Positions 21,484 to 41,509 of a stretch of 64,000 bases of DNA are shown here, one piece after another. The stretch covers positions 62,001 through 126,000 of the forward strand of contig NZ_QICJ01000002.1 in NCBI RefSeq assembly GCF_003201105.1, given 5' to 3'. Under the pieces are notes generated by a model. That model ran no database searches. It was not told the DNA's origin and was given only the letters and a program-made list of their open reading frames with translations. The position numbers and the translations under genes were made by a program. Each line of letters begins with the position of its first letter. Positions within the stretch are counted from its first letter, which is position 1. This DNA is from Dyella sp. AtDHG13 (GTDB taxonomy: Bacteria > Pseudomonadota > Gammaproteobacteria > Xanthomonadales > Rhodanobacteraceae).

Positions 21484-21524
21484 GGGCGGGGTTTCTCGGC
21501 TGCCCCGCACGCTTCTTCCATCAC

Positions 21525-21538
21525 CCCGCGAAAGCGGG
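21525..21538. repeat. Single REP-like hairpin between imuB and dnaE2
   Basis: CCCGC-GAAA-GCGGG with flanking AAT. This is one unit of the same repeat family as the perfect pair at 25478-25576. It lies in the 85-bp imuB-dnaE2 gap, where it may tune relative expression or RNA stability. Confidence 0.55.
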
Positions 21539-21568
21539 AATGGCGGCGCCTTTGAAGACACGTGCAGG

Positions 21569-22981: not shown

Positions 22982-22992
22982 GGCGCTTTCTC

Positions 22993-23616: not shown

Positions 23617-23623
23617 GACGCGA

Positions 23624-24193
23624 TCACCGCAAGCTGCGCAGGCAACGCGTGACGACGCCCCAGATGCTGAGCGTCTCGCCTTCGCGGAACACGATGGGCT
23701 TGAAGTGCGCGTTCTCCGGCAGCAGCGCCACGTGCCCGTCCACCTTGCCCAGGCGCTTGATGGTCAGCTCGTTGTTGACCACCGCCACCACGATGTCGCC
23801 CTGGCGCGGCGCGAGCGCGCGATCCACCAATACTTCGTCGCCGTCGAAGATGCCGGCGCCGATCATCGACCAACCCGACACGCGGATGATGAAGGTGCTC
23901 GGCTCATGGCCGGGCAGCACCAGATGCTGGTTGAGATCGACCACCTCGTCGACATCGTCTTCCGCCAGCGTGGGCACGCCGGCTGGCACGCGGCTGAGGA
24001 AGGCCGTCAACGCGACGGTCGACGGATCCAGCGAAACGGGGCGCGGCGCCTCCAGCGAAGCCGGGCTTCGATAGGCCTCCAGGTACGCCAGCACCGCCGG
24101 CACCTGGCTTTCAGGCACGCGGACACGCTGGCTCGGTTCACCGGCGGGACGGCCGGCACCAGGGCGGCGTCCACCGTGGTCGGAAGGAGGCAT
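23624..24193 (-). CDS. UmuD/LexA-like S24 autoprotease heading the imu operon
   Basis: 189 residues. The C-terminal S24 domain has Ser109 (SGWSM) and Lys146 (LTIKRL), 37 apart exactly as in UmuD and LexA, and a probable self-cleavage bond Ala71-Gly72 (VPAGVP). There is no LexA winged helix; instead residues 7-42 read GGRRPGAGRPAGEP followed by RVRVPESQVPAVLAYL, a beta strand plus helix reminiscent of ribbon-helix-helix proteins. It could act as UmuD in translesion synthesis, as a repressor cleaved under RecA, or both. First gene of the imu operon; a dyad lies 7 bp upstream and no good Shine-Dalgarno is visible. Confidence 0.85.
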   Translation of the reverse strand: MPPSDHGGRRPGAGRPAGEPSQRVRVPESQVPAVLAYLEAYRSPASLEAPRPVSLDPSTVALTAFLSRVPAGVPTLAEDDVDEVVDLNQHLVLPGHEPSTFIIRVSGWSMIGAGIFDGDEVLVDRALAPRQGDIVVAVVNNELTIKRLGKVDGHVALLPENAHFKPIVFREGETLSIWGVVTRCLRSLR

Positions 24194-24200
24194 AAGGCGA

Positions 24201-24225
24201 CTTGATTATCGGGACGACAATCAAG
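24201..24225. promoter_or_regulatory. Dyad operator before the imu operon
   Basis: CTTGATT at 24201-24207 and AATCAAG at 24219-24225, with 11 bases between. It lies immediately 5' of the UmuD-like gene start, so a bound protein would cover the promoter or ribosome site. It does not look like the usual gammaproteobacterial CTGT-N8-ACAG LexA box. Confidence 0.55.
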
Positions 24226-24304
24226 ATACCACGGCGGCGTTCTCACGGAGCGAGATTCAGCTTCCCACCCCGGCAAAACTCAAATGGCTGACCCCAAAGG
24301 AAAA

Positions 24305-25411
24305 TCAGGCATCCACGCCATACACCCGCCCCTTCCACTGGGAGCGCACGCCGCGCCAGTAGCGGATGGCCGAGCTCCAGGTCATGCCCAGGTACAGGGC
24401 CGCCCCCAGCGGCAGCAGCAGCGCCCACCACAGGGGCATCCGGTAGTACCTGAGCATGGGCAGGTAGCCCAGCATCATGGCGAGCAGCGCCGCCCAGGCC
24501 AGCGGCCAGACCTGCGGCGCCCCGAGCAAGGCCAGCGGCGCGCCGTAGGCGAGCAGGAACAGCACCGTCACCACCAGCAGCAACGTGGTCGAGTACCCCA
24601 GCTGGGTGAACGCCGAACGCGCCACCATGCGGTGGATCGACTCGAAGCTGCCATACGGCCGCAGGCTCACCACGTCGCGGCTCAACCCGATCCAGGTACG
24701 CCCACCCGCCAGCTTTACCTGGCGCGCGAGCGTGCAATCGTCGATCAGCGCATCGCGCAGGCTGGCGAAGGCGCCGATGCGCTCCAGCATGGCCGTATCC
24801 ACCAGGATGCATCCGCCCGCCCCTGCCGCCACCAGCGTGGAGCGCGAATTGGAAATGGCGAACGGATAAAGCAGCTTGAAGTAGTAGACGAACGCGGGCA
24901 ACAGCAGGCGATCCCAGAAACCGGTGCGGCGCAGGTCCGCCATGATCGAGACGAACTGGCGCTGCTCGCGCTGCTTGTGCGCCTGCAGGGTCGCCAGCAT
25001 GCCGGGGCGCAGTTCGATGTCCGCATCCAGCAGCAAGGTCAGCGGCGTGCGCACGTGCTGCCTGCCCTGCTCCAGCGCCCACAGCTTGCCGGCCCAGCCA
25101 TCCGGCAACGGCGCACCGGAAATCACGCGCACATTCGGGAAGGCATTCGCCACGGCGGCCGTGCCGTCGGTCGACTGGTCGTCGATCACGATGACCTGCA
25201 AGCCCTTGCCCTGCGCCTGCAGGCCACGCAAGGTCGTGCCGATCACATCGGCTTCGTTGCGCGCGGGAATCAGCACGGTGATGTCGCCGAGCGGTGCGCG
25301 CGACGACGGATCGGCCTCAAGATGCTCGCGCGTGCTCCATGGTCGCCACGGCACGAGCAGGAGCCCCAGCCACATCAGGAGAGGGATGATGGCGCAGATG
25401 TATAGCCACAT
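24305..25411 (-). CDS. hpnB: Hopanoid-associated glycosyltransferase HpnB
   Basis: 368 residues. A GT2 domain (about 40-240: VLIPARNEADVIGTTLRGLQ, DDQSTDGT, LLLDADIELRPG, RDALIDDCTLARQVK) is flanked by an N-terminal anchor helix and three or four C-terminal membrane helices. This layout is that of HpnB, found in hopanoid clusters but with no settled reaction. It lies about 195 bp after hpnH on the same strand, behind a strong inverted repeat, so its transcription may be partly uncoupled from idi-hpnH. Confidence 0.88.
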   Translation of the reverse strand: MWLYICAIIPLLMWLGLLLVPWRPWSTREHLEADPSSRAPLGDITVLIPARNEADVIGTTLRGLQAQGKGLQVIVIDDQSTDGTAAVANAFPNVRVISGAPLPDGWAGKLWALEQGRQHVRTPLTLLLDADIELRPGMLATLQAHKQREQRQFVSIMADLRRTGFWDRLLLPAFVYYFKLLYPFAISNSRSTLVAAGAGGCILVDTAMLERIGAFASLRDALIDDCTLARQVKLAGGRTWIGLSRDVVSLRPYGSFESIHRMVARSAFTQLGYSTTLLLVVTVLFLLAYGAPLALLGAPQVWPLAWAALLAMMLGYLPMLRYYRMPLWWALLLPLGAALYLGMTWSSAIRYWRGVRSQWKGRVYGVDA

Positions 25412-25606: not shown

Positions 25607-26749
<1,143 letters not shown>

Positions 26750-26849
26750 CGGAATCTCCTCATCGCTGATCGATGGATCGTTATGTGCCGCGCTAAACGC
26801 GCGAAGCACGGAATGCCATACGTCTACATCGTTGCACCGAGTATAGCGC

Positions 26850-27458
26850 TCAGGACGCCAGGCTCGCCGGCGGAGCGAACACATGCGCATGCTCCCGCCG
26901 CAATCGGTCCCATTCGATCTTGAACCAGGGCGTGAAGCGCTCCGGGTGCGCATCGATCTCGCGATCCAGCGCGTCCGGCGCCACGTAGCGCAAGGCGGCG
27001 ATCTCATGGATGTTGGCGACGGGCGCCGTATCCGTTCGACCCGCGTAGACCCAGCACAGTTCATGCTCGGCGCCTTCCGCATCGAACTGCGCCTGATACT
27101 GGAACTTGAACTGGAACTCGAACTGGCACTGCATGCCAAGTTCTTCGCCTAGCCGCCGATGGATGGCCGTTTCCATGGTCTCGCCGCGGCGCGGATGGCT
27201 GCAGCAGGTGTTGGACCAGTAGCCCGGCCACAGGCGCTTGCCTTGCGCGCGCTGCTGAAGCAGCAATTCACCGTGCGTGTTGAACACGAACAGCGAGAAG
27301 GCGCGATGCAGGATGCCCTGCCCGTGATGCGCGGAAGCCTTGTCGAGAAAGCCTGTTTCGCGATCGTGCTCGTCCACCAGCACCAGAGGTTCGTCCTGGA
27401 AGGAAACCACATTCCTCGACCAGGTTTCTTCGTTGTAGTCCAACTCGCGGCTAGCCAA
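26850..27458 (-). CDS. idi: Isopentenyl-diphosphate delta-isomerase, type I
   Basis: 202 residues of the Nudix-type Idi family: VLVDEHDRETGFLDKASAHH, then LHRAFSLFVFN, the catalytic segment YWSNTCCSHPRRGE with the active-site Cys, and the downstream Glu in HELCWVYAG. It interconverts IPP and DMAPP. The start codon is TTG at 27458, with GAGAGG about 8 bases upstream; no in-frame ATG precedes the conserved core. Idi is dispensable beside the MEP pathway and here probably balances prenyl supply for squalene. Confidence 0.92.
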   Translation of the reverse strand: MASRELDYNEETWSRNVVSFQDEPLVLVDEHDRETGFLDKASAHHGQGILHRAFSLFVFNTHGELLLQQRAQGKRLWPGYWSNTCCSHPRRGETMETAIHRRLGEELGMQCQFEFQFKFQYQAQFDAEGAEHELCWVYAGRTDTAPVANIHEIAALRYVAPDALDREIDAHPERFTPWFKIEWDRLRREHAHVFAPPASLAS

Positions 27459-27626: not shown

Positions 27627-28169
27627 TCAATTTGTCGAATGGACGCTGCTTGCCGGTACAGGAAAGGGCTCGTGCGTGCGTGTCCAGGTGGTACTTCCGC
27701 CCAGCAGCGGAATGCCGATGTAGCCACGCAGCACGAGCCGGTCGGGCGATCGCAGATGCACTTCGCAGTGGTATTCCTTGCCGTTGTCGGCGTTGTAGAC
27801 GCGGCCGTCCACCCAGGCCTTGGCATCGCTGTCATAACGCAAGCCCCACAACAGGCGCAGCCCGGTCAGCGGCCGGGAGCGCAGCGCGGGATCGGGATTG
27901 TGCCGATCCGTCACGGTCTTGCCGTTGAGCTCCGGCCCGTCCTCCGGTCCGTAGGTGTCATGCAGTTGCCAGACGATGGTGCCGACGAAGGTATCGCCCT
28001 GCGGCTCGATGCGGATGATGGCGTCGCGGCTCTCGACCAGCCAGTCGCCGGTGATCGCCGCCGCATCGCTCGCGGGCGACTGCGCGAACGCCGCGCCGCA
28101 TGACAGCGCCAGCAGCATGAGCAGCCCAGCACGTCGCCATCGAAAGAGATAGGTTTTCACAAAGTGCAT
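27627..28169 (-). CDS. Secreted DUF2147 protein
   Basis: 180 residues. A signal peptide ends near GAAFA/QS. The mature domain has the DUF2147 pattern: ITGDWLVESRDAIIRIEPQG, FVGTIVWQLHD, then GKTVTDRHNPDPALRSRPL and GKEYHCEVHL with a C-terminal RGYIGIPLLGGSTTWTR. The function of the family is not established. It is divergent from hpnI with the two 5' ends almost touching, so the promoters must overlap. Confidence 0.82.
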   Translation of the reverse strand: MHFVKTYLFRWRRAGLLMLLALSCGAAFAQSPASDAAAITGDWLVESRDAIIRIEPQGDTFVGTIVWQLHDTYGPEDGPELNGKTVTDRHNPDPALRSRPLTGLRLLWGLRYDSDAKAWVDGRVYNADNGKEYHCEVHLRSPDRLVLRGYIGIPLLGGSTTWTRTHEPFPVPASSVHSTN

Positions 28170-28214
28170 GCGTTAACTTTGGAAGGAATGGTGGATCGCG
28201 TCCGAGCCGAATTC

Positions 28215-29381
28215 ATGCCGTTCTCTCCTGCCGCTACAACACCGCTGTCATGGATGGGCATGATCCTGGCCCTGTGCGCGGCAATGTATGCGTATCTGAG
28301 CTTCTGGGCATGGTTTCGCAGCGAGCGGCGGCAGCAGCATCGGCGAGCGGATGTGAACGATCAGGCAAGCCGGCCCGTGAGCGTACTCAAGCCGCTGCAC
28401 GGCGCCGAACCCAGGCTTTACGAGAACCTGCGGAGTTTCTGCGAGCAGCATTACGCGCATTATGAATTGCTCTTTGGCGTGCGCGATCCGGAGGATCCGG
28501 CTATCGCCGTAGTGCAACGGCTGCAGCGCGAATTCCCGCAGTTGCCGATGGCGCTGGTCATCGACCCCGCGGTGCACGGCGCCAACCTCAAGGTCAGCAA
28601 CCTGATCAACCTGGTCGCGCAGGCGCGGCATGACTGGCTGGTGCTGGCCGACAGTGACATCAGCGTGACACCGGACTATCTGCTGCGTGTCACCGCCCCG
28701 CTCAACGACCCGCGCACCGGCATCGTGACCTGTCTTTATCATGGCGTGGCCAACAACACCCTCAGCTCGCGGCTGGGGCGGCTGTTCATCGACGACTGGT
28801 TTGCGCCGTCCGTAAGGCTGGCGCATGCCTTCGGCTCGACCCGCTTCGCGTTCGGCTCGACTATCGGCCTGCGCCGCGACGCACTGGAAGCCATCGGCGG
28901 CTTCGACCCCTTGAAGGACACGTTGGCGGATGATTTCTGGCTGGGCGAACGCACGCGGCAGTTGGGCCTGCGCACCGTACTCAGTGACGTGGTCGTGGGC
29001 ACCGACGTCAGCGAGACGACGCTCGCCAGCCTCTGGTCGCATGAGCTGCGCTGGCTGCGCACCATCCGCGCCATCTCCCCGGCCGGTTTCTTCTTCAGCT
29101 TCATTTGCCTGACCTGGCCGCTGCTGGCCGTAGCCCTGGCGCTGTCGCCTTCCGCGCCTTGCCTCGTCATCTGCGTGCTCGCCGCGATCGCCCGCACGGC
29201 GCGCTATGCCGCGTCGTGGCGAAGCACCGCAAGATCGTCCCGCTGGCGGGATCTCTGGCTCACCCCTTTCCGCGACGCGCTATTGCTGGTGGAATGGGCG
29301 GGTGCGCTGGTCCACTGGCGAGTGGATTGGCGCGGTCAGGTATTGCATGCGCGCGACCATGCGCCATCGCGGTATCCTTAG
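28215..29381 (+). CDS. hpnI: Hopanoid biosynthesis glycosyltransferase HpnI
   Basis: About 388 residues, GT21 (ceramide glucosyltransferase-like). An N-terminal membrane helix precedes PVSVLKPLHGAEPRLYENL, LADSDISVTPDYLL, DTLADDFWLGERTRQLG and the HELRW motif of the (Q/R)xxRW signature; C-terminal helices follow. HpnI adds N-acetylglucosamine to bacteriohopanetetrol. The frame is open from a GTG at 28164; ATGs at 28188 and 28215 are alternatives, none with a clear Shine-Dalgarno. First gene of hpnI-J-K-L-ferritin-like. Confidence 0.9.
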   Translation: MPFSPAATTPLSWMGMILALCAAMYAYLSFWAWFRSERRQQHRRADVNDQASRPVSVLKPLHGAEPRLYENLRSFCEQHYAHYELLFGVRDPEDPAIAVVQRLQREFPQLPMALVIDPAVHGANLKVSNLINLVAQARHDWLVLADSDISVTPDYLLRVTAPLNDPRTGIVTCLYHGVANNTLSSRLGRLFIDDWFAPSVRLAHAFGSTRFAFGSTIGLRRDALEAIGGFDPLKDTLADDFWLGERTRQLGLRTVLSDVVVGTDVSETTLASLWSHELRWLRTIRAISPAGFFFSFICLTWPLLAVALALSPSAPCLVICVLAAIARTARYAASWRSTARSSRWRDLWLTPFRDALLLVEWAGALVHWRVDWRGQVLHARDHAPSRYP

Positions 29382-29431
29382 TCGAAAGTGCGATGAACAA
29401 CTCGTTGCGGAAGCAGGAGCTTGGCAATCCC

Positions 29432-30859
29432 ATGAAGACGCTTTTTCTGCAGGCCCCTTCGTTTGACGGTTTCGATGGCGGGGCCGGCTCCCGTTACCAG
29501 GCCAAACGCGAGATCAAGAGTTTCTGGTATCCCACCTGGCTGGCGCAGCCGGCCGCGCTCGTTCCCGGATCGCGCGTGCTCGACGCCCCGGTGGAAGAGC
29601 TCTCGGTGGAAGACACCCTCGGTATCGCCAGCGCTTACGACCTCGTGATCATCCATACCAGCACGCCCTCCTTCCCCACCGACGCGAAATTCGCGGAGCT
29701 GCTCAAGGAGCGCCAGCCCAATATCCTCATCGGCATGGTGGGCGCCAAGGTCGCGGTGGAACCGGAACCCTCCTTGCTGGCGTCACCCGCCATCGATTTC
29801 GTGGCGCGCGAAGAGTTCGACTACACCTGCAAGGAAGTGGCCGAGGGCCGCGCCCTGAAGGACATCGCCGGCATCAGCTACAAGCTCGCCGACGGCCGCG
29901 TGCAGCACAACCCGCCGCGCGCCACCATCGAGCACATGGACGACCTGCCCTTCGTGGCGCCGATCTACAAGCGCGACCTGAAGATCGAGCGCTACTTCAT
30001 CGGCTACCTGATGCATCCGTACGTGTCGATCTACACCGGCCGCGGCTGCCGCTCCAAGTGCACTTTCTGCCTGTGGCCGCAGACGGTGGGCGGCCATCGC
30101 TACCGCGTGCGCTCGGCCGCCAACGTGCTCGCCGAGGCCAAGTGGATCAAGGAGAACATGCCCGAGGTCCGCGAACTCATGTTCGACGACGACACCTTCA
30201 CCGACAGCTCCAACATGGAGCGCGTGCACGAGATCGCGCGCGGCCTGCATGCGATGGGCTGGACCTGGAGCTGCAACGCCAAGGCCAACGTGCCCTACGA
30301 GTCGCTCAAGATCATGAAGGAGAACGGCCTGCGCCTGCTGCTGGTGGGCTACGAGTCCGGCGACGACCAGATCCTGCACAACATCAAGAAGGGCCTGCGC
30401 ACCGACATCGCGCGCACCTTCACCGAGAACTGCCGCAAGCTCGGCATCACCGTGCACGGCACCTTCATCCTCGGCCTGCCGGGCGAAACCAAGGAAACCA
30501 TCGCGCGCACCATCCAGTACGCCAAGGAGATCAACCCGCACACCATCCAGGTGTCGCTGGCCGCGCCCTATCCGGGCACCACGCTGTACAAGCAGGCCAT
30601 CGACAACGGCTGGCTGGAGGAGAACACCTCGGCGCACCTGGTCAACGACAAGGGCGTGCAGCTGGCGATGATCAGCTATCCGCACCTGTCCAAGGAAGAG
30701 ATCTTCCACGGCGTGGAAACCTTCTACCGCAGCTTCTATTTCCGCCCTTCCAAGATCTGGGAGATCGTGAAGGAAATGGCGGGCAGCTGGGAGATGACCA
30801 AGCGGCGCCTGCGCGAAGGCGTGGAGTTCTTCCGTTTCCTGCGCGCGCACGAGGCGTGA
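29432..30859 (+). CDS. hpnJ: Radical SAM/B12-binding protein HpnJ
   Basis: 475 residues: N-terminal B12-binding-like domain (about 1-150; MKTLFLQAPSFDGFDGGAGS), then a radical SAM domain with C-x3-C-x2-C in GRGCRSKCTFCLWP and a C-terminal helical tail. HpnJ converts the glucosaminyl head group of bacteriohopanetetrol to the cyclitol ether. The ATG at 29432 gives the family N-terminus; an upstream in-frame ATG at 29393 would add 13 unconserved residues. It is 50 bp after hpnI. Confidence 0.93.
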   Translation: MKTLFLQAPSFDGFDGGAGSRYQAKREIKSFWYPTWLAQPAALVPGSRVLDAPVEELSVEDTLGIASAYDLVIIHTSTPSFPTDAKFAELLKERQPNILIGMVGAKVAVEPEPSLLASPAIDFVAREEFDYTCKEVAEGRALKDIAGISYKLADGRVQHNPPRATIEHMDDLPFVAPIYKRDLKIERYFIGYLMHPYVSIYTGRGCRSKCTFCLWPQTVGGHRYRVRSAANVLAEAKWIKENMPEVRELMFDDDTFTDSSNMERVHEIARGLHAMGWTWSCNAKANVPYESLKIMKENGLRLLLVGYESGDDQILHNIKKGLRTDIARTFTENCRKLGITVHGTFILGLPGETKETIARTIQYAKEINPHTIQVSLAAPYPGTTLYKQAIDNGWLEENTSAHLVNDKGVQLAMISYPHLSKEEIFHGVETFYRSFYFRPSKIWEIVKEMAGSWEMTKRRLREGVEFFRFLRAHEA

Positions 30860-30881: not shown

Positions 30882-31712
30882 ATGACCGATTCACCCGTAT
30901 CCACGCGCCCACGACTGATCGTGACGGCCGATGATTTCGGCCTGCACACCGCCGTCAACCAGGCGGTGGAGCGCGGCTATCGCGAAGGCGTGCTGCGCGC
31001 GGCCAGCCTGATGGTGACGGCGCCCGCGGTGGCCGACGCCGTGGCGCGCGCGCGGCAGCTGCCGGGACTGGCGGTTGGCCTGCACCTGGTGCTGGCGGAT
31101 GGACAATCCGCCCTGCCGCCCTCGCGCATACCCGACCTGGTCGATGCACGCGGAAACTTTGGCGACAACATGGTGCGCGACGGATTCCGCTTCTTCTTCC
31201 TGCCGCACGTGCGCCGGCAGCTGGCCACGGAAATCCGCGCGCAGTTCGAGGCCTTCGCCGCCACCGGCCTGCCGCTCGACCACGTCAACGCACACAAACA
31301 CTTTCATCTTCATCCCACCGTGCTATCCCTGATGCTTTCCATTGGCCGCGATTACGGCCTGCGCGCCGTGCGCTGGCCGGCCGAACCCGGTTCCGGCCCC
31401 TGGCTCAAACCCTGGCTCGCGCTGATGCGCCATCGCCTGCGCCGCGCCGGCGTGCGCACCAACGACCACGTCTTCGGCATCCGCCACACCGGCGGCATGG
31501 ACGAGCAGGCCTTGCTCGACGTCGTGCAAGGCCTGCCCGCCGGGCTGAGCGAGCTGTACCTGCACCCGGCCATCCATGGCGAACTCACGCCCGCGATGAG
31601 CGATTACCGCCATGCCGACGAACTGGCCGCCCTGCTGTCGCCGCGCGTGCGGCAGGCCGTGGCCGAACACTGCCTGCTCTGCCGGGGCTTCAGCGATCCG
31701 GCCGCCGCATGA
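30882..31712 (+). CDS. hpnK: Hopanoid GlcNAc deacetylase HpnK
   Basis: 276 residues of the YdjC/ChbG carbohydrate deacetylase family. Metal and catalytic motifs are VTADDFGLH (Asp-Asp near the N-terminus), VGLHLVL and VNAHKHFHLHP. HpnK removes the acetyl group from GlcNAc-bacteriohopanetetrol made by HpnI, giving the substrate for HpnJ. It is 22 bp after hpnJ and overlaps hpnL by 4 bp (ATGA). Confidence 0.93.
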   Translation: MTDSPVSTRPRLIVTADDFGLHTAVNQAVERGYREGVLRAASLMVTAPAVADAVARARQLPGLAVGLHLVLADGQSALPPSRIPDLVDARGNFGDNMVRDGFRFFFLPHVRRQLATEIRAQFEAFAATGLPLDHVNAHKHFHLHPTVLSLMLSIGRDYGLRAVRWPAEPGSGPWLKPWLALMRHRLRRAGVRTNDHVFGIRHTGGMDEQALLDVVQGLPAGLSELYLHPAIHGELTPAMSDYRHADELAALLSPRVRQAVAEHCLLCRGFSDPAAA

Positions 31713-32728
31713 AATATCTCGTTTATCTTGCCGGCCTGCTCGGGCTGATCGCCGCGATCATCCTGGTGACGCAGCAGAACTGGTCCGCCATCGAAAACGC
31801 CTTCGACCACGCGGGCTGGGCCTTGCTCTGGCTGCTGCCCTTCCATGCCCTGCCCCTGCTGCTGGACGTGCTCGGCTGGCGCACGCTGCTGGCGCCGAGC
31901 GATCCGCAACGGCGCGCCGGCACGCCTTTCCTGTTCTGGGCCGCCACCGTGCGCGAAGCCTGCAACCGGCTGCTGCCGGTCGCCAATGTCGGCGGCGAGA
32001 TCGTCGGCATCCGCCTGGTCAAATGGCGCGGGCTGGAAGGCGCGCCGGTAGCAGCCAGCGTGGTCATGGAAGTGCTGCTGACCCTGGTCAGCCAGTACAT
32101 CTTCGTCGCGCTGGGTTTGCTCCTGCTGATCGGCATGGCCGGCCACATCGGTACGCTCAATTCGGTGATCGGCGCGGTGGCGGCCTCGCTGCCGCTGCCT
32201 ATCGGCCTGATCTGGATCCTTCGCCACGGCCAGCTGTTCTCGCGGCTGGAAACCTTCGCGGAAAAGCTGCTCGGCGGCCCGTCGCGCTTCACCGAACTGC
32301 TCGACGGCGCGCGCCTGGACGAGGAAGTCCGCAAGCTCTACGACCGCCCCGCGCGCCTGGCCGTGGCCTGTGCCTGGCAGGTGGCCGGTTTCGTGGTGGG
32401 CAGTTTCGAAAGCTGGCTTGCGCTGCAGCTGCTGGGCTTTCCCATCTCCGTGTGGGACGCCATCGCCATCGAGGCCACCACGCAGGCCGTGCGCCACATC
32501 ATCTTCTTCGTCCCGGCCGGCCTGGGCGTGCAGGAAGGCGGACTGGTGCTGTTCGGCAACATCATCGGCCTGCCCGCCGATGCCGCCATCGCGCTGTCGC
32601 TGGTCAAGCGCGCGCGCGAGGTAGGCTTCGGCGTGCCTGCACTGCTGTCGTGGCAGTGGGCCGAGGCACACCGGCTGCATCGCCGCTGGCTCTCGCGCCG
32701 CAAGCCCGGGCTTTCCGACACACCCTGA
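31709..32728 (+). CDS. hpnL: Hopanoid-associated membrane protein HpnL
   Basis: 339 residues with about seven or eight membrane helices. It belongs to the UPF0104/lysylphosphatidylglycerol synthase transmembrane family (EVLLTLVSQYIFVALGLLLL, FESWLALQLLGFP, TTQAVRHIIFFVPAGLGVQEGG). Members in hopanoid clusters are called HpnL; a flippase-like or lipid-transfer role is suspected but unproven. It overlaps hpnK and is followed 11 bp later by the ferritin-like gene. Confidence 0.9.
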   Translation: MKYLVYLAGLLGLIAAIILVTQQNWSAIENAFDHAGWALLWLLPFHALPLLLDVLGWRTLLAPSDPQRRAGTPFLFWAATVREACNRLLPVANVGGEIVGIRLVKWRGLEGAPVAASVVMEVLLTLVSQYIFVALGLLLLIGMAGHIGTLNSVIGAVAASLPLPIGLIWILRHGQLFSRLETFAEKLLGGPSRFTELLDGARLDEEVRKLYDRPARLAVACAWQVAGFVVGSFESWLALQLLGFPISVWDAIAIEATTQAVRHIIFFVPAGLGVQEGGLVLFGNIIGLPADAAIALSLVKRAREVGFGVPALLSWQWAEAHRLHRRWLSRRKPGLSDTP

Positions 32729-32739
32729 GCGAGGTGAGC

Positions 32740-33630
32740 ATGTCCCATGACGCCGTAGCCGCCGCCGATCACACCATGCGCCACTGGGCCGGCAACGAGC
32801 CGGGGCGCATCAAGATCGGCTCCGACGCGCACAAGCGCCTGTTCTGCCGGATGCTGCTGGACACGCACAACCCGTACAAGCCGGCCGTGATCGAATGGCC
32901 GGCGTTGAGTCCCGACGCGCTGCACCGCATCACCTCGCTGCCGATCTGGGACATCGCCGTGCAGACCGAAGGCAAGGCCAAGCTGCGCGTGGCCACCTAC
33001 ACCAACACCGTGGGCGATCCGCTGCTGCACGAAGCCCTCACCATGGATGGCGACGAGGAAGCGCGCCACAAGGTGGTGCTCAGCAAGATGGTCGCGGCCT
33101 ACGGCATCGCACTGGCGCCGGAGCCCGAGTACGAAGTGCCGAAGGACCCCGAATGGGGCTGGCTGGTCACCGGCTACAGCGAATGCATCGACAGCTTCTT
33201 CGCCTTCGGCCTGTTCGAGTCGGCCAAGCGCACCGGCTACTTTCCCGCCGAACTGGTGGAAACCTTCGAGCCGGTGATGCAGGAAGAGGCGCGCCACATC
33301 CTGTTCTTCGCCAACTGGGTGGCATGGCATCGCAAGCAGTTGCCGTGGTGGCGGCGCCCGGCCTTCGAGTTCAAGGTGCTGCGCGTGTGGCTGTTCCTGA
33401 TCTGGGAACGCATCGGCATCGCCAAGGGCCTGGATGACAACGGCGAAATGCAGGACGCGAATTTCACCATCACCGGCCACGAACAGATCGGCCTGGACCT
33501 GAAGATCGGCGAATTGATCGACCTGTGCCTGGCGCAGGACAGCTTGCGCATGGGCGGCTACGACGAACGCCTGCTGCGCCCGACCTTCGTGCCGCGCATG
33601 GCGCGGCTGGCGCGGCGGTTCATGCGTTGA
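32740..33630 (+). CDS. Uncharacterised ferritin-like diiron protein of the hopanoid operon
   Basis: 296 residues. I read a complete four-helix diiron set: Glu77, then Glu107-x-x-His110 (GDEEARHK), Glu149, then Glu183-x-x-His186 (QEEARHIL). The spacing of about 30 and 34 residues between helix pairs is typical of ferritin-like oxidases. Residues 212-225 are hydrophobic and could touch the membrane. The ATG at 32740 has GAGGTGA just upstream and lies 11 bp after hpnL, so it is the last gene of the hpnI-J-K-L message. Function is not known to me; an O2-dependent step on a hopanoid or its head group, or radical/iron protection, are both possible. Confidence 0.8.
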   Translation: MSHDAVAAADHTMRHWAGNEPGRIKIGSDAHKRLFCRMLLDTHNPYKPAVIEWPALSPDALHRITSLPIWDIAVQTEGKAKLRVATYTNTVGDPLLHEALTMDGDEEARHKVVLSKMVAAYGIALAPEPEYEVPKDPEWGWLVTGYSECIDSFFAFGLFESAKRTGYFPAELVETFEPVMQEEARHILFFANWVAWHRKQLPWWRRPAFEFKVLRVWLFLIWERIGIAKGLDDNGEMQDANFTITGHEQIGLDLKIGELIDLCLAQDSLRMGGYDERLLRPTFVPRMARLARRFMR

Positions 33631-33643
33631 ACCGTGACGGTTG

Positions 33644-34621
33644 TCAGCGATGCAGACTGAACCACGCCACTGCGTCCTCCAGCGCCAGTCGCACCGGCCC
33701 GGCGGCGTAGCCCAGCTCGCGCTCCGCCTTGGCGCTGGTGAAGAACATGCGCTTGCGCGACATGCGCACTTCTTCCACGGTGGCGATCGGCGGCTTGCCG
33801 GTCAGCCTTGACCACGCCTCCGCCGCATAGGCCACCGGCATCACCGCGCCATGCGGCAGGCGCCAGCGCGGCGGCGGGCGGCCGACGATGTCCGCGATCT
33901 CGAACAGCAGGTCGCGCAGGCTGATGTTGCTGCCGCCAAGCACGTAGCGTTCGCCCGCCACGCCGTGGCGGAAGGCCAGCCAATGCCCATCGGCCACGTC
34001 GTCCACGTGCACCACGTTGAGCCCGGTATCGACATAGGCGGGCATGCGTCCCGTCATGGCATCGCGCACGATGCGTCCGGTGGGCGTGGGCTTGATGTCG
34101 CGCGGGCCGATCGGCGTCGATGGGTTGACGATCACCACCGGCAAACCCTGCGCGGCGTACTCGCTCACCAGCTGTTCCGCCAGGAACTTGGAGCGCTTGT
34201 AGTGGCCCACCATGTCGGCCAGCGACACGGGCGTCGCCTCGTCGCCGGGCGTGCCGTCCCTGGGAATGCCCAGCGTCGCCACGCTGCTGGTGTAGACCAC
34301 GCGCGGCACGCCGGCACGCCGCGCCACGTCCAGCAGCGCGCGCGTACCCTCGACATTGGTCTGATACAACTCCTGCGGCCGTGGCGCCCACAGGCGGTAA
34401 TCCGCCGCCACATGGAACAGGGCATCGCAGCCGTCGCAGATGCCTGCCAGCGACGAGGCATCGGCAAGATCGGCTTCCACCACCTCCACATCGAGTCCCT
34501 GCAGGTTGCGCCGGTCGGAGCCGGGCCGCGCCAGGACGCGCACGTGGTGATCCTCGCGCAGCAGCCTCCGCACCACGGCGGAGCCGACGAACCCGGTGGC
34601 GCCGGTCACCAGCGACCTCAC
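33644..34621 (-). CDS. hpnA: Hopanoid-associated sugar epimerase HpnA
   Basis: 325 residues, short-chain NAD(P)-dependent epimerase/reductase. The dinucleotide motif is TGATGFVGSAV at the N-terminus; the catalytic triad region shows YTSSVATLG and HYKRSKFLAE (Tyr-x3-Lys). HpnA is a marker of hopanoid clusters; its substrate is uncertain. The start is probably GTG at 34621 (VRSLVTGATGF); another GTG at 34672 would add residues before the Rossmann strand. It is transcribed alone, convergent with the ferritin-like gene (13 bp between stops). Confidence 0.88.
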   Translation of the reverse strand: MRSLVTGATGFVGSAVVRRLLREDHHVRVLARPGSDRRNLQGLDVEVVEADLADASSLAGICDGCDALFHVAADYRLWAPRPQELYQTNVEGTRALLDVARRAGVPRVVYTSSVATLGIPRDGTPGDEATPVSLADMVGHYKRSKFLAEQLVSEYAAQGLPVVIVNPSTPIGPRDIKPTPTGRIVRDAMTGRMPAYVDTGLNVVHVDDVADGHWLAFRHGVAGERYVLGGSNISLRDLLFEIADIVGRPPPRWRLPHGAVMPVAYAAEAWSRLTGKPPIATVEEVRMSRKRMFFTSAKAERELGYAAGPVRLALEDAVAWFSLHR

Positions 34622-34950
34622 AGGCTCGATTCCGAGATGCGCCCGACCATCGCCAGCACCCGCTCTGGACACATACGTCTGCTTTCCCTGAACTCGGGGA
34701 GGAGTTGCGGTTCATTATGTACGAACGACGCACGCGGTGGCACCGCATTCGCGACCGTAGCCGTTTCGTGGCGACGCGCACCAGTGCCACTCGTCTGGCC
34801 TGCTGCTTTCCGCAGCCTTTCAGCGCAAATGAACATCTAGACGAACCGACGACATTTGCTCTGGTCATATGGCTGCGTCTCACACGGACAGGGTGCTACC
34901 ATGCCGACGTTGCTGGTTTCTCTGTATGTGAATACTAAGAAGGCCCAGGC
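34622..34950. other. Divergent promoter region between hpnA and sqs
   Basis: 329 bp with no convincing gene. It is less GC-rich than its surroundings near the right end. A possible weak promoter for sqs is TTGCTG at 34910 with AATACT at 34931 (15-bp spacing, suboptimal). AAGAAGG at 34936-34943 is the sqs Shine-Dalgarno. Confidence 0.4.
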
Positions 34951-36090
34951 ATGCCAATGTTCGACGCGAAACAAGCCGCCGAGGTTGCCCCGAGCAACGC
35001 CAGCGCTTACCAGGAAGCCATACTTCCCAAGGTGTCACGAACGTTTGCGCTGACGATTCCGCAGCTGCCGCCGGCACTGCGCGACGTTGTCGCCAATGCG
35101 TATCTGCTGTGTCGCATCGCCGACACCATCGAAGACGAACCCGCCTTCACCCCGGAAGAAAAAGGACGCTACGAAAGCGCCTTCGTCGATGCCGTCACCG
35201 GACACATCGACGCACGCGAGTTCGCCGCCGACATTGCGCCACGCCTGTCCAGCGCCACGTCCGAAAGCGAACGCGACCTGATGTTCCGCCTTCCGCTGGT
35301 GCTGGAAGTGACGGATACGTTCAACCCCACCCAGCACGAAGCCATCGTGGAATGCCTGCGCGTGATGTCGCAGGGCATGCACGATTTCCAGCGCGTCGTC
35401 GGCCTGCAGGGGCTGGAGACGCTGCGCGACATGGATCGCTACTGCTACCACGTCGCCGGCGTGGTGGGCGAAATGCTCACCAAGCTGCTCATCGACTTCG
35501 AGCCCGAGCTGGTGCCGCAGACGCGCACGCTGATGCGCCTGGCCATCTCCTTCGGCCAGGGCCTGCAGATGACCAACATCCTCAAGGACCAGTGGGAGGA
35601 TCGCAGTCACGGCGTGTGCTGGCTGCCGCACGACGTCTTCGCGCGTTACGGCGTGGAACTGCGCGACCTCACCGCCGGCCAGCAGGATGCGCACTATGCC
35701 GACGCCATGATCGAGCTGATCGGCGTGGCGCACTCGCATCTGTGCCGCGCGGTGGAATACACCTTGCTCGTGCCGGCACGCCATGCCGGCTTCCGCCGCT
35801 TCTGCCTGTGGAGCATCGGCCTGGCCGTGCTGACGCTGCGCAATCTGCAGGATCGCCTGGATTTCTCCTCCGGCACGCAGGTCAAGGTATCGCGCGCCGC
35901 CGTGGCCCAGACCATTGGCCTGACGCGCCTCACCGACAAATACGACCCGGCCGTCCGTTTCCTGTTCGGCGCCGCGGCGCGCAAGCTGCCGCTCACGCCG
36001 CTGGGCCCGGAGTGGGACGTTCCGCAAGCGCGCAACGTGGCCTGGCCGTGGCGGCGCGCATCGGACTTCAAGAACGCACGATCGCTATGA
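34951..36090 (+). CDS. Squalene synthase, single long (eukaryotic-type) form
   Basis: 379 residues, trans-isoprenyl diphosphate synthase head-to-head family. The two Asp-rich motifs are DTIED (58-62) in CRIADTIEDEP and DQWED (213-217) in NILKDQWEDR; the segment RYCYHVAGVVGEMLTKLL is typical of squalene synthases. At about 380 residues it is far longer than HpnC or HpnD (about 280) and resembles the one-enzyme squalene synthases that make squalene from two farnesyl diphosphates with NADPH. No hpnC, hpnD or hpnE is present here. It overlaps shc by 4 bp (ATGA). Confidence 0.88.
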   Translation: MPMFDAKQAAEVAPSNASAYQEAILPKVSRTFALTIPQLPPALRDVVANAYLLCRIADTIEDEPAFTPEEKGRYESAFVDAVTGHIDAREFAADIAPRLSSATSESERDLMFRLPLVLEVTDTFNPTQHEAIVECLRVMSQGMHDFQRVVGLQGLETLRDMDRYCYHVAGVVGEMLTKLLIDFEPELVPQTRTLMRLAISFGQGLQMTNILKDQWEDRSHGVCWLPHDVFARYGVELRDLTAGQQDAHYADAMIELIGVAHSHLCRAVEYTLLVPARHAGFRRFCLWSIGLAVLTLRNLQDRLDFSSGTQVKVSRAAVAQTIGLTRLTDKYDPAVRFLFGAAARKLPLTPLGPEWDVPQARNVAWPWRRASDFKNARSL

Positions 36091-38087
36091 CGGATACGCC
36101 TGCCACTGTCGCCCCGCCTGCCCCAGCCCACTCGCGTCAGCCGCAGCCCGAAAACGACCGCATCGACCAGGCCATCGACCGCGCCCGCCGCGCGCTGATG
36201 GCCCGGCAGCACGCCAACGGACACTGGTGCTTCGAGTTCGAAACCGACTGTACCATCTCGTCCGAATACATCCTGATGATGCACTTCCTCGACGAGATCG
36301 ACGACGTGCTGCAGGAAAAGCTGGCACGCTACATCCGCCTCAAGCAACGGCTCGACACCCACGGCGGCTGGCCGCTGTACCACGACGGTGCGCTCGACGT
36401 GTCGTGCACGGTCAAGTCGTATTACGCGCTGAAGGCCGCCGGCGACTCGCCGGATGCACCGCACATGCGGCGCGCGCGCGAAGCCATCCTCGCCGCGGGC
36501 GGTGCCGCCAGAAGCAACGTCTTCACGCGCATCCTGCTCGCCATGTTCGGCCAGGTGCCCTGGCGCGCCGCGCCGTACGTGCCGGTGGAGATCATGCTGT
36601 TCCCGCGCTGGGCGCCGTTTCATCTCGACAAGGTGTCGTACTGGGCGCGCAGCACGATGGTGCCGCTGTTCATCCTGTGCTCGATGAAGGCGAAGGCGAA
36701 GAATCCGCGCAACGTCGGCATCCCCGAACTGTTCGTGACGCCGCCGGAGCAGGAGCGCCACTACTTCGCCACCACCACCTTCGTCAGCCGCTTGTTCCTG
36801 GTGCTGGACAAGATCGGGCGCGCCTGCGATCCGCTGATTCCCGCTTCGCTGCGCCGCAAGGCCATCAAGCGCGCGGAAGCATGGTTCCTGCCGCGACTGA
36901 ATGGCGAAGACGGGCTTGGTGCGATCTTCCCGCCCATGGTGAATGCCCTGGAGGCGATGGACCTGCTCGGCTACGCCAAGGATCATCCCGCGCGCACCAC
37001 CTGCCTGAAGTCGCTGCAGAAGCTGATCGTGCATCGCGACGATGGCACGGCGTTCTGCCAGCCCTGCGTGTCGCCCGTGTGGGACACCGGCTGGGCGGCA
37101 ATGGCCCTGCTGCGCGCATCGCCCGACGATGCCACGCAGGATGCCGTCACGCGCGCCATGGAATGGCTCGCGCCATTGCAGGAGCTGGAACTCAAGGGCG
37201 ACTGGGCCGTGCAGGCGCCCGATCTTGCACCGGGCGGCTGGGCGTTCCAGTACGCCAATGCGTATTACCCGGATCTGGACGACACCGCCGTCGTCGCCGG
37301 CCTGCTGCACGTGGCCGTGCGCGGCACGCCGCGCGACGGCATGTATCGCGAGCGCATCGAACGCGCCGCGGACTGGCTGGTCGGCATGCAGTCGGACAAT
37401 GGCGGTTTCGCCGCGTTCGACCGCAACAACACGCACTACCACATCAACGAAATTCCCTTCGCCGACCATGGCGCCATGCTCGATCCGCCCACGGAAGACG
37501 TATCCGGACGCGTGCTGGCGTTTCTGGGTGTGCTCGGCCGCCCGCAGGACCAAAGCGCCATCGCACGCTGCATCGACTATCTGCGCGACGCGCAGCAGCC
37601 GGACGGTTCGTACTGGGGGCGCTGGGGCACCAACTACATCTACGGCACGTGGTCCGTGCTGGCCGGTCTCGCACTGGTTGGCCAGGACATGCGGCAGCCC
37701 TGGATCCGCAAATCGGTGGACTGGCTCATCGCCAGGCAGCACGCCGACGGCGGCTGGGGCGAAACCAACGACAGCTACTTCGATGCCGCGTTGCGCGGCA
37801 CGAACGCCGGCATAAGCACGGCCCACAGTACAGCATGGGCCGTACTCGGCCTGCTCGCCGCCGGCGAGCAGGCGGCGGAAGCGACGCGACGCGGCATCCA
37901 CTGGCTGCTCGACCATCAGCAGGCACAGGGCGAGCCGGAGGCGGATCTCTGGTATCACCCGAGTTTCAACGCACCGGGATTCCCCCGCGTGTTCTTCCTG
38001 AAATACCACGGCTACACGGCTTATTTCCCGCTATGGGCACTCACTCGCTATCGCCAGCTGCTTGCGCGCTCGCAGCCGACGCCGTGA
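36087..38087 (+). CDS. shc: Squalene-hopene cyclase
   Basis: 666 residues (also called HpnF). The protonating motif DLDDTA is at residues 396-401. Several QW-type repeats are visible (QHANGHWCFEFE, QQPDGSYWGRWG, QHADGGWGETND), as is the GTWSVLAGL region. It cyclises squalene to hopene and diplopterol at the membrane. The ATG overlaps the squalene synthase stop and the shc stop overlaps hpnG (TGATG), so the three are translationally coupled. Complete compared with the usual 630-680 residues. Confidence 0.96.
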   Translation: MTDTPATVAPPAPAHSRQPQPENDRIDQAIDRARRALMARQHANGHWCFEFETDCTISSEYILMMHFLDEIDDVLQEKLARYIRLKQRLDTHGGWPLYHDGALDVSCTVKSYYALKAAGDSPDAPHMRRAREAILAAGGAARSNVFTRILLAMFGQVPWRAAPYVPVEIMLFPRWAPFHLDKVSYWARSTMVPLFILCSMKAKAKNPRNVGIPELFVTPPEQERHYFATTTFVSRLFLVLDKIGRACDPLIPASLRRKAIKRAEAWFLPRLNGEDGLGAIFPPMVNALEAMDLLGYAKDHPARTTCLKSLQKLIVHRDDGTAFCQPCVSPVWDTGWAAMALLRASPDDATQDAVTRAMEWLAPLQELELKGDWAVQAPDLAPGGWAFQYANAYYPDLDDTAVVAGLLHVAVRGTPRDGMYRERIERAADWLVGMQSDNGGFAAFDRNNTHYHINEIPFADHGAMLDPPTEDVSGRVLAFLGVLGRPQDQSAIARCIDYLRDAQQPDGSYWGRWGTNYIYGTWSVLAGLALVGQDMRQPWIRKSVDWLIARQHADGGWGETNDSYFDAALRGTNAGISTAHSTAWAVLGLLAAGEQAAEATRRGIHWLLDHQQAQGEPEADLWYHPSFNAPGFPRVFFLKYHGYTAYFPLWALTRYRQLLARSQPTP

Positions 38088-38896: not shown

Positions 38897-41509
38897 GTGT
38901 TCAAAGCGATTCACAAAGGCCTGGTATCGGCGGTCGATCGCAGTGGCCGCCACCACTATGCGGTGCTCCTGATCGCCGCTGTGTTCGTCGTGCTGAGCCT
39001 GTGGGGTGCATCGAAGCACCTGAGCATCGATACCGACTCCGATCACCTGTTCTCCGACAAGCTGCCGTGGCGGCAGCAGAGCCTCGCCTTCGCGCGGCAG
39101 TTCCCGCAGTTCAGCGACACCCTGACCGCCGTGGTGCGCGCGCCCACGGCGGAGGAAGCACGCATCGCGGCGCAGGCGCTCAACGCGAAACTGGCGGCCG
39201 ACAAGGAACACTTCCGTTCGTCGTCCACGCCCGGCATCAGCCCGTTCTTCAATCGCGAAGGCTTGTTGCTGCTGCCGCAGGATGAACTGGAAAGCACGCT
39301 CGACAGCATGCTGCAGGCGCAACCCCTGCTCGGTCCGCTGGCCAAGGATCCGTCCGCGCGCGGCCTGTTCAACGGCATCGACCTGATGGTGGAAGGCGTG
39401 CGGCGCGGCATGGCGAACGACCTGTCCTCCTACGACGCGGCGCTGGGCAATGTCGCGCACACCATGGAGGACGCCGTTGCCGGCAAGAACGCGCCGCTGT
39501 CGTGGCAGGCGCTGCTCACGCCCGACCTGGTCAACAGCAATGGCGGGCAGGAATTCATCCTGATCCATCCGGTGCTCGATCACACGGCGCTGGAACCCGG
39601 GCAAGCCGCCACGCAGGCCATGCTGCGGCTGGCCAACGAGCTGCCGGAGGTGAAGTCGGGCCGCGTGCGCGTGAACTACACCGGCTCGGTGCCGCTGGCG
39701 GACGAGGAATTCGCTTCGCTGACGGATCGCGCGGGCCCCATCGCCATCGGCAGCAGCCTGCTGCTGGTGTTCTGGCTGGTGTTGGCGCTGGGCACGTGGC
39801 GGCTGATCGTGCCGGTGATCATCACCCTGGTGGTGGGCCTGATCTACACCCTGGGTTTCGCCGCGCTCGCGGTGGGCCGCCTGAACCTGGTGTCCGTGGC
39901 ATTCGCCGTGCTGTTCGTGGGCCTGGCGGTGGATTTCGGGATCCAGTTCGGCGTGCGGCTGCACGCGCGCCAGTACAGCGACCGCACCTTCGACGATTCG
40001 CTGCACGAAACCGCCCATCGCGTGGTCAGCCAGGTCGGCCTTGCCGCGCTGGCTACGGCCTGCGGCTTTCTCGCCTTCGCGCCGACCGATTTCACCGGCG
40101 TCGCCGAGCTCGGCATCATCGCCGGCGTCGGCATGCTGCTGGCGCTCATCTGCACGCTGACGGTACTGCCCGCGCTGCTGCGCCTGCTTTCCAAGGGGTC
40201 GCCGCACGCCGAGGTGGCGCTGCCCGGCGGCGCCAAGGCCGACGGCTGGTTGAACCGCCACCGCAAGGCGGTGCTGGTCGCCTTCGGCGTGCTCGGCATC
40301 GCGGGCATCTGGTGCGCGGCGACCATTCCCTTCGATGCCAACCCGCTGCACACCAAGCGCGCGGACAGCGAGGCGATGCGCACCCTCACCTCGCTGATGG
40401 ACGACCCGAATACCAATCCCTTCACCATGGACCTGCTGGCGAAGGACCTGCCCGCCGCCAAGGTGATGAGCGAGAAGCTGGGCAAATTGCCGGAAGTGGC
40501 GCAGGTGGTGTCGGGCGTGGACTTCGTGCCCGCCGGGCAGGACGACAAGCTTGAGCAGCTGCAGCAGGCGTCCGACCTGATGTATGCCGTGCTGAACCCC
40601 GGCGAGAAAGTCGCCGCGCCCACCGCGGATGACATACGCAGCGCCGCCAGGGACACCAGCGAAGGCATCGCCAGCGTGGCCGACAAGCTGCCGGCGCAAT
40701 CCCCGCTGCGCCGCATCGGCAAGGCGCTGGCCGCGCTGTCGCACGGCACCGACGCGCAGGTGGCCACGGCCAATGACGCGCTGACGAAGTTCCTGCCCTA
40801 CACGCTTAACCAGCTCGCCGATTCGCTGTCCGCCACGCCCATCACCATGCAGAACCTGCCCGACGACCTGCGGCGCGACTGGTTCGCGCCCGATGGACGC
40901 GTCCGCATCCAGGTGACGCCCACGACCAAGGCGCAGAGCACCGCCGGCCTGCGCGACTTCGTAGGGGCGGTGCAGAAGATGGCGCCGGATGCGGCCGGTT
41001 CCGCCGTCGACACCATCAAGGCGGCCGACACCATCCTCATCGCCTTCCGCGAGGCGGCGATCTATGCCACCGCGGCCATCGCCATCGTGCTGATCCTGGT
41101 GCTGCGCCGCGCGCGCGATGCCGGCCTGGTGCTGGCCACGCTGCTGATGTCCGCCCTGCTCACCGCGCTGCTGGCGCGCCTGTTCGGCATCGCCATCAAC
41201 TTCGCCAACATCATCGCGCTGCCGTTGCTGCTGGGCGTGGGCGTGTCGTTCAACGTGTACTTCGTGATGAACTGGCGCCACGGCATGCAGCTGTTCCTTG
41301 GCTCGCCGACGGCGCGCGCGATCCTGTTCTCCGCGCTCACCACGGGTACGGCCTTCGGCAGCCTGGCCATCGCCCGCCATCCGGGCACGGCCAGCATGGG
41401 CAGCGTGCTGCTGCTCAGCCTGGTGGCCGTGCTTCTGTCCACCTTCGCTTTCCTGCCCGCGATGCTTTATTCGATCGGGCGGTGCAAGCAACCCATCAGC
41501 CACGCCTGA
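38897..41509 (+). CDS. hpnN: RND-family hopanoid transporter HpnN
   Basis: 870 residues of the MmpL-like RND superfamily: one N-terminal helix (HHYAVLLIAAVFVVLSLWGA), a large periplasmic domain, a six-helix block (IAIGSSLLLVFWLVLALGTW, VAFAVLFVGLAVDFGIQFGV), a second periplasmic domain and a final block of helices. HpnN moves hopanoids from the inner to the outer membrane. The start is GTG at 38897. A 75-bp gap separates it from hpnG in the same direction. Confidence 0.93.
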   Translation: MFKAIHKGLVSAVDRSGRHHYAVLLIAAVFVVLSLWGASKHLSIDTDSDHLFSDKLPWRQQSLAFARQFPQFSDTLTAVVRAPTAEEARIAAQALNAKLAADKEHFRSSSTPGISPFFNREGLLLLPQDELESTLDSMLQAQPLLGPLAKDPSARGLFNGIDLMVEGVRRGMANDLSSYDAALGNVAHTMEDAVAGKNAPLSWQALLTPDLVNSNGGQEFILIHPVLDHTALEPGQAATQAMLRLANELPEVKSGRVRVNYTGSVPLADEEFASLTDRAGPIAIGSSLLLVFWLVLALGTWRLIVPVIITLVVGLIYTLGFAALAVGRLNLVSVAFAVLFVGLAVDFGIQFGVRLHARQYSDRTFDDSLHETAHRVVSQVGLAALATACGFLAFAPTDFTGVAELGIIAGVGMLLALICTLTVLPALLRLLSKGSPHAEVALPGGAKADGWLNRHRKAVLVAFGVLGIAGIWCAATIPFDANPLHTKRADSEAMRTLTSLMDDPNTNPFTMDLLAKDLPAAKVMSEKLGKLPEVAQVVSGVDFVPAGQDDKLEQLQQASDLMYAVLNPGEKVAAPTADDIRSAARDTSEGIASVADKLPAQSPLRRIGKALAALSHGTDAQVATANDALTKFLPYTLNQLADSLSATPITMQNLPDDLRRDWFAPDGRVRIQVTPTTKAQSTAGLRDFVGAVQKMAPDAAGSAVDTIKAADTILIAFREAAIYATAAIAIVLILVLRRARDAGLVLATLLMSALLTALLARLFGIAINFANIIALPLLLGVGVSFNVYFVMNWRHGMQLFLGSPTARAILFSALTTGTAFGSLAIARHPGTASMGSVLLLSLVAVLLSTFAFLPAMLYSIGRCKQPISHA

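Follow-up and report, generated by a model that had tools for sequence, protein, structure and literature searches.

The closest described systems to the protein considered here, called DII, are the R2-like ligand-binding oxidases (R2lox) and the R2 proteins of class I ribonucleotide reductase. DII is encoded in a 64,000-nucleotide stretch of the Dyella sp. AtDHG13 genome (contig NZ_QICJ01000002.1, positions 62,001 to 126,000), referred to below as the window, where it is the last gene of the row hpnI-hpnJ-hpnK-hpnL-DII. It probably serves as an oxygenase that tailors extended hopanoids. With R2lox and R2 it shares the predicted fold and the E/ExxH/E/ExxH layout on four helices. It is, however, only about 13-18% identical to R2lox chains, R2 is not among its three weak profile matches in the PDB, and the ribonucleotide-reductase Pfam family was not matched at E ≤ 1 by the window protein or by 18 DII members.

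Other families were compared in the same way. The window protein scores 15.7 bits against Ferritin_2 (PF13668) and does not reach the 24.7-bit cut-off; five of the 18 members match this model at E ≤ 1 (best E 1.5e-4), and seven match Rubrerythrin (PF02915; best E 4.2e-4). The profile of the diiron oxygenase AurF, a p-aminobenzoate N-oxygenase (PF11583), gives a weak match around E183-H186, with 13.9 bits against a cut-off of 29.6, and is matched by 10 of the 18 members at E ≤ 1. A weak profile match to the tRNA hydroxylase MiaE (5ux1, E 0.014) and the match of a single member to the ubiquinone hydroxylase COQ7 (E 0.05) are not significant; the substrate that COQ7 hydroxylates is a membrane isoprenoid lipid. 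With the window protein itself, no Pfam model reaches its cut-off, NCBIfam gave no match at E ≤ 1, PHROGs gave a single one at E 0.22, and phmmer against the PDB gave none at E ≤ 5. Among hopanoid genes, the ring methylases HpnP and HpnR, and also HpnO, resemble DII in being accessory tailoring genes that often lie off the hpn cluster, as described in passages of a survey of Alphaproteobacteria (PMC12583986). Unlike DII they are not diiron proteins, HpnP and HpnR being radical S-adenosylmethionine (SAM) enzymes and HpnO of aminotransferase type, and they act elsewhere on the lipid.

The predicted diiron site of DII

The predicted diiron ligands of DII are E77, E107xxH110, E148 and E183xxH186, and each ExxH motif is held in an EEARH block (E106-E107-A-R-H110 and E182-E183-A-R-H186). 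A loose form of this six-ligand layout arose in 75 of 20,000 shuffles of the protein. Of 78 aligned rows (the window protein, L082-L086 and 72 of the 80 named loci), 77 retain all six residues, as do the remaining eight named loci, for a sum of 85 of 86; the sole homologue without the full set, L086, is a broken plasmid copy. Because it is rare in shuffles and so widely kept, the layout is more than chance. The ligands were also complete in every one of the 34 rows of a broader set, which overlaps in part with this one and includes proteins as little as 32% identical to that of the window.

An AlphaFold2 model of DII (mean predicted local distance difference test score, pLDDT, 84.4; predicted template modelling score, pTM, 0.86) places the ligands on four consecutive long helices (Table 1). 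Its best PDB matches, obtained with Foldseek and VIA-align, have the R2/R2lox fold, in a list of best matches that may leave other diiron families unlisted. The arrangement of the carboxylate-bridged diiron superfamily, with E, ExxH, E and ExxH on four bundled helices, is present in the prediction. These data support DII as a predicted O2-activating carboxylate-diiron protein that belongs to no named family.

The preliminary description of this locus had proposed such a protein, with both ExxH motifs inside EEARH blocks, and the family searches, the ligands kept in homologues and the predicted four-helix, R2-like fold are all in agreement with it. Its ligand set needs one correction: E77, E107xxH110 and E183xxH186 were named rightly, but residue 149, given there as a glutamate ligand, is a cysteine, and the ligand is Glu148.

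Occurrence of DII and its proposed activity

DII follows the extended-hopanoid pathway from genome to genome. Of 398 Pseudomonadota genomes in an even draw, 14 contained DII and 49 HpnH, and all 14 carriers, one of them the window genome, were among the 49 (Fisher 3e-14, kinship ignored). HpnH was counted only above its curated cut-off, since below it the profile rings in 360 of the 398 genomes and in 14 of 14 control genomes. In a draw of 143 Gammaproteobacteria, HpnH was present in 20 genomes and DII in two of these (the window genome and G136), and in no others. DII was thus seen only alongside the extended-hopanoid pathway in both draws. It is accessory to that pathway, as 35 of the 49 HpnH-positive genomes of the first draw lack it, and a wider DII profile found no match at E ≤ 0.1 in 39 HpnH-positive genomes without DII (21 of the 35 from the first draw and all 18 from the second).

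Among 47 DII-bearing genomes, taken from 48 of the 80 named loci, HpnJ was above its cut-off in 38. The nine carriers without it are the four Pandoraea among these 47, three Cupriavidus, a Burkholderia (L037) and a metagenome bin (L017), so DII is independent of cyclitol formation. HpnH was above its cut-off in all 22 carriers searched (22 of the 80), which include the nine without HpnJ and ten Pandoraea. The four Pandoraea loci L031, L035, L036 and L065 come from genomes with HpnH and DII but no HpnJ above cut-off, and these strains should therefore make extended hopanoids without the cyclitol ether.

Gene position was counted in the best 80 of at least 571 DII relatives, one genome per species, with up to 10 kb of flank for each (less at contig ends); the closest named relatives among these 80 are from Dyella, at 94% identity. 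The gene stands directly after HpnL on the same strand in 21 (Dyella, Azotobacter, Azomonas, Nevskia and others) and near other hpn genes in 10 (seven Cupriavidus, Duganella and two metagenome bins), while the flanks of 49 hold no hpn gene (Burkholderia, Paraburkholderia, Pandoraea, Trinickia, Rhodoblastus and others). Grouping with hpn genes recurs across lineages, namely in Rhodanobacteraceae, Nevskia, Azotobacter, Cupriavidus, three further genomes (G481, G411 and G327) and a Caballeronia plasmid. In G481 DII adjoins hpnA-H-I-J-K-L. In G411 the order is hpnI-J-K-DII-L on a plasmid-like contig, for which a Sphingomonas record gives the best cover (86% across 14% of 20 kb, in uvrA).

The strict co-occurrence and adjacency with hpnI-J-K-L that the preliminary description had envisaged are not seen, given the counts for HpnJ (38 of 47) and for position after hpnL (21 of 80). 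A majority of homologues outside hopanoid loci, which it had regarded as damaging, was found by position (49 of 80), but genome content gave the opposite result, with all 14 carriers HpnH-positive. Its general proposal of an O2-dependent hopanoid modification remains the best reading of a candidate activity. The cyclitol head group, which it had considered as a target, is disfavoured by the nine carriers without HpnJ; the evidence leads instead to a modification of the hopane side chain, which that description did not name.

This step concerns hopanoids with five or six functional groups. Section 4.1.2.6 of the 2025 alphaproteobacterial survey gives the genes for pentol and hexol hopanoids as unknown and reports that hpn neighbourhoods gave no candidate (PMC12583986), and a partial survey of the open-access literature found no gene for this step. 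Counted from Table 3 of the same survey, pentols or hexols occur in nine of 10 Acetobacteraceae and in six of the eight Sphingomonadales that make bacteriohopanepolyols (BHPs), whereas 18 of 19 BHP-making Hyphomicrobiales have 0% and one has 1% (PMC12583986). Among its strains, Sphingomonas mali and Nitrospirillum amazonense are rich in pentols, and Novosphingobium rosa and Sphingomonas changbaiensis are pentol-negative. DII is distributed in a similar manner: it is present in all five HpnH-positive genomes of family f184 (Acetobacteraceae, with Commensalibacter melissae and Formicincola oecophyllae recognised through plasmid matches of 100%), in one of two of the Sphingomonas-like family f179, and in none of 17 of families f182 and f172, which are read as Hyphomicrobiales because of a 16S sequence 92% identical to those of Bosea and Methylosinus, together with a weak plasmid match to Methylocystis. 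For 16S more widely, an Rfam search matched five of 24 genomes and a DNA search three of nine. Passages of PMC8560942 report bacteriohopanepentol cyclitol ether as the product of Burkholderia cenocepacia K56-2, and fully characterised pentols from Acetobacter, Azotobacter vinelandii and Nostoc. In excerpts of the literature Methylococcus capsulatus is described as producing an aminopentol that bears hydroxyl groups at positions 30 and 31. DII itself is present in B. cenocepacia NCTC13227 and Azotobacter beijerinckii. Its carriers fit the reported pentol makers (Burkholderia, Azotobacter, Acetobacteraceae and Sphingomonadales), mostly at family level, and its distribution suggests a role in adding extra hydroxyl groups to hopanoid tails.

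Hydroxylation of C-H bonds is what such diiron sites do. Because the carriers match pentol makers and the class has this chemistry, hydroxylation at C-31, and perhaps at C-30, is proposed; on balance, DII would use O2 to hydroxylate the hopanoid side chain and give rise to pentol and hexol hopanoids, with substrate, position, product and electron donor all put forward on this footing. DII would act as a soluble R2-like carboxylate-diiron monooxygenase on the aliphatic part of the extended side chain, its target being the CH2 next to the tetrol, C-31, and in some lineages C-30 too. Lipids of bacteriohopanetetrol (BHT) type would be converted into those of pentol, and hexol, type, and the window organism would end with bacteriohopanepentol cyclitol ether. 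By analogy with the chemistry of this class, the diiron site would be reduced by a reductase or ferredoxin encoded elsewhere; O2 would then bind, a high-valent diiron-oxo unit would take a hydrogen from C-31, and the hydroxyl group would rebound.

Alternative activities and conflicting observations

Several other activities were weighed against side-chain hydroxylation. An unlikely but serious alternative is that DII oxidises extended hopanoids in some other way, such as to a 32-oxo product or in a reaction that starts from ribosylhopane. It would account equally well for the dependence on HpnH, and passages of PMC12583986 suggest an oxidation-hydration route to pentols via a 32-oxo intermediate. 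The 35 HpnH-positive genomes without DII argue that such an oxidation is not a core step, and the fit with pentol makers favours hydroxylation of the side chain.

Somewhat less probable is a hopanoid ring desaturase that introduces a delta-6 or delta-11 double bond, with the diiron site used as in acyl-ACP desaturases. The diiron class can desaturate, Burkholderia and Acetobacteraceae produce both unsaturated and pentol hopanoids (passages of PMC8560942 and PMC12583986), and the desaturation genes are likewise given as unknown (PMC12583986, in part). The distribution of unsaturated forms nevertheless lowers the standing of this explanation. According to excerpts of PMC12583986, Sphingomonadales have pentols but 0-1% unsaturated hopanoids; conversely, Afipia broomeae of the Hyphomicrobiales has 43% unsaturated hopanoids and 0% pentol. 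In the genomes compared here, the Sphingomonas-like G411 has DII inside hpnI-J-K-L, and all 17 HpnH-positive genomes of the two Hyphomicrobiales-like families lack DII. Excerpts of the literature also describe the methanotrophs Methylomarinum and Methylomarinovum, whose genomes fall outside the comparison, as having aminopentol without unsaturated forms. A gene of the sterol-desaturase family, with a rough match to unsaturation, is proposed in passages of PMC12583986 for the desaturation.

That DII oxidises the glucosamine or cyclitol head group made by HpnI, HpnJ and HpnK is improbable: the 21 of 80 loci where it immediately follows hpnL, and the order hpnK-DII-hpnL of G411, would suit such a role, but nine of 47 carriers have no HpnJ above cut-off, and the copies of G327 stand in a core hpnA-B-C-D-E-shc-H locus with no match to hpnI, hpnJ or hpnK in 20 kb. 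Least probable of all is a protein of iron metabolism, oxidative stress or other diiron function that is merely co-resident with hopanoid makers, since, despite the 49 of 80 homologues without an hpn gene in the flank, every carrier in the two even draws is HpnH-positive (14 of 14 and two of two, with the window genome in both) and DII clusters with hpn genes in several lineages.

Several observations weigh against side-chain hydroxylation by DII. Passages of PMC5100885 report aminotetrol with a 31-hydroxyl group in type II methanotrophs, yet the Methylocystis-like genome G375, whose pmoA/amoA match is just below cut-off, yields no match to DII even when E values up to 0.1 are admitted. Three genomes were above the pmoA/amoA cut-off, and two of these (G028 and G291) are HpnH-positive yet lack DII; G291 may be an ammonia oxidiser, a guess from gene copies. 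The same source (PMC5100885, in part) describes aminotetrol from some Desulfovibrio, which are anaerobes. Rhodopila strain LVNP has bacteriohopanepentol cyclitol ether and can grow anaerobically, the growth condition of the sample not being given in the passages of the source. Aminopentol is also reported in the thermophiles Geobacillus and Meiothermus (passages of PMC8537080), which lie outside the Pseudomonadota covered by the DII searches. Type II methanotrophs, Desulfovibrio, Rhodopila and the thermophiles mean that other routes, some without O2, must exist. Further, DII is present in seven of 11 genomes of the genus Rhodoblastus, and the carbamoyl BHPs of R. acidophilus are known, in the excerpts of the source, only as BHT type. 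The DII-free genome G585 is a possible R. acidophilus; a reading of up to the first 20 kb of 60 contigs for an antenna gene gave one light-harvesting peptide that resembles a PDB chain without being identical to it. No reductase or ferredoxin gene that might serve as electron donor was recognised beside DII in profile searches of the window, and DII is missing from 35 of 49 HpnH-positive genomes. Finally, the link with hydroxylation is one of distribution, mostly at family level, and most of the compared genomes come without chemical analysis; a partial survey of the open-access literature found no hopanoid profile of Dyella, Pandoraea or Nevskia.

The window locus, paralogues and significance

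The features of the window locus are collected in Table 1. The stop codon of hpnL lies at 32726-32728 and the ATG of DII at 32740, leaving a gap of 11 bp, so that the reading frame, coordinates and gap in the preliminary description were right, as was the assignment of the upstream genes to hpnI, hpnJ, hpnK and hpnL, all of which exceed their NCBIfam cut-offs.

Table 1. DII, its predicted ligand codons and the neighbouring hopanoid genes, in window coordinates
Feature	Position	Strand	Basis or remark
DII, R2-like diiron oxygenase candidate, 296 aa	32740..33630	+	proposed hopanoid side-chain hydroxylase
Codon of ligand Glu77, helix 69-88	32968..32970	+	alignment, model
Codons of ligands Glu107-x-x-His110, helix 94-121	33058..33069	+	alignment, model
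Codon of ligand Glu148, helix 137-165	33181..33183	+	alignment, model
Codons of ligands Glu183-x-x-His186, helix 170-200	33286..33297	+	alignment, model
GAGGTGAG, likely ribosome-binding site inside the hpnL-DII gap	32731..32738	+	inference from sequence
HpnI, BHT N-acetylglucosaminyltransferase	28164..29381	+	TIGR03472, 457 bits, above cut-off
HpnJ, radical SAM, cyclitol-forming	29432..30859	+	TIGR03471, 824.5 bits, above cut-off
HpnK, deacetylase	30882..31712	+	TIGR03473, 395 bits, above cut-off
HpnL, membrane protein, adjoins DII upstream	31709..32728	+	TIGR03476, 337.5 bits, above cut-off
HpnA, sugar epimerase, convergent with DII	33644..34672	-	TIGR03466, 496 bits, above cut-off
HpnH, adenosyl-hopene transferase (matched part of open reading frame 25607-27139)	25787..26746	-	TIGR03470, 538 bits, above cut-off
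Squalene-hopene cyclase (from first model-matched residue)	36126..38087	+	TIGR01507, 773 bits, above cut-off
HpnN, hopanoid transporter	38897..41509	+	TIGR03480, 902 bits, above cut-off

Beyond hpnA the window holds a squalene-synthase-like gene, the squalene-hopene cyclase, an hpnG-like gene (153.5 bits, below its cut-off) and hpnN; the other side of the row holds hpnH together with an hpnB-like gene (375.4 bits, just below cut-off). The squalene/phytoene-synthase-like gene beside hpnA (34951-36090) has TIGR01559 as its best model (119 bits, below cut-off) rather than HpnC or HpnD, and because of this better fit squalene may be made at this locus by a one-enzyme synthase. The open reading frames 25607-27139 (HpnH) and 29105-30859 (HpnJ) were called with starts that are too early, the model matches beginning near 26746 on the minus strand and at 29432, respectively. 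Next to the hpnB-like gene is a minus-strand SOS cassette with genes for an error-prone DNA polymerase and ImuA (18406-25411). Elsewhere, plasmid p3 of Caballeronia zhejiangensis (L086, 9821-11069) carries hpnI followed by an hpnL-like gene, a DII copy that is broken and unannotated, and then hpnJ; it is a plasmid-borne hopanoid head-group cluster with a decayed DII. Plasmid records of Burkholderia cenocepacia, Cupriavidus metallidurans and Caballeronia sp. SBC1 show no annotated features in the corresponding stretch.

DII falls into two paralogous clades, DII-A and DII-B, which the tree parts on a starred branch where long branches meet. Two genomes carry both. In G327, DII-A lies upstream of hpnA-hpnB-hpnC-hpnD-hpnE-shc and DII-B on the opposite side, close to ispH-hpnH; these 20 kb gave no match to hpnI, hpnJ or hpnK. 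In G532 of family f184 (L162, 9344-11140) the two are joined in a single 650-amino-acid open frame, which may stem from a sequencing error in a stop codon. No homologue of the window hpn genes was found within 20 kb of DII in the other four f184 genomes, G558 or G201. The one genome seen with DII-B alone is the methanotroph G136, whose PmoA differs at two of 247 positions from the PDB chain 1yew_B/3rgb, that of M. capsulatus Bath. Tentatively, DII-A and DII-B could act as a pair of diiron hydroxylases devoted to C-31 and C-30, and could together account for the penta- and hexafunctionalised hopanoids of many Proteobacteria, with the 35-aminobacteriohopanepentol of Methylococcus among them.

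DII is a concrete candidate for a step that has been reported without a known gene, and may fill this published gap. Penta- and hexafunctionalised hopanoids serve as biomarkers in sediments, and for geochemists the 35-aminobacteriohopanepentol of Methylococcus is a biomarker of methanotrophs; a gene for their formation would allow both their sources and their O2 requirements to be traced. If the proposed pairing of DII-A and DII-B is true, these biomarkers would be, in these lineages, signatures of O2-dependent chemistry with a traceable gene.
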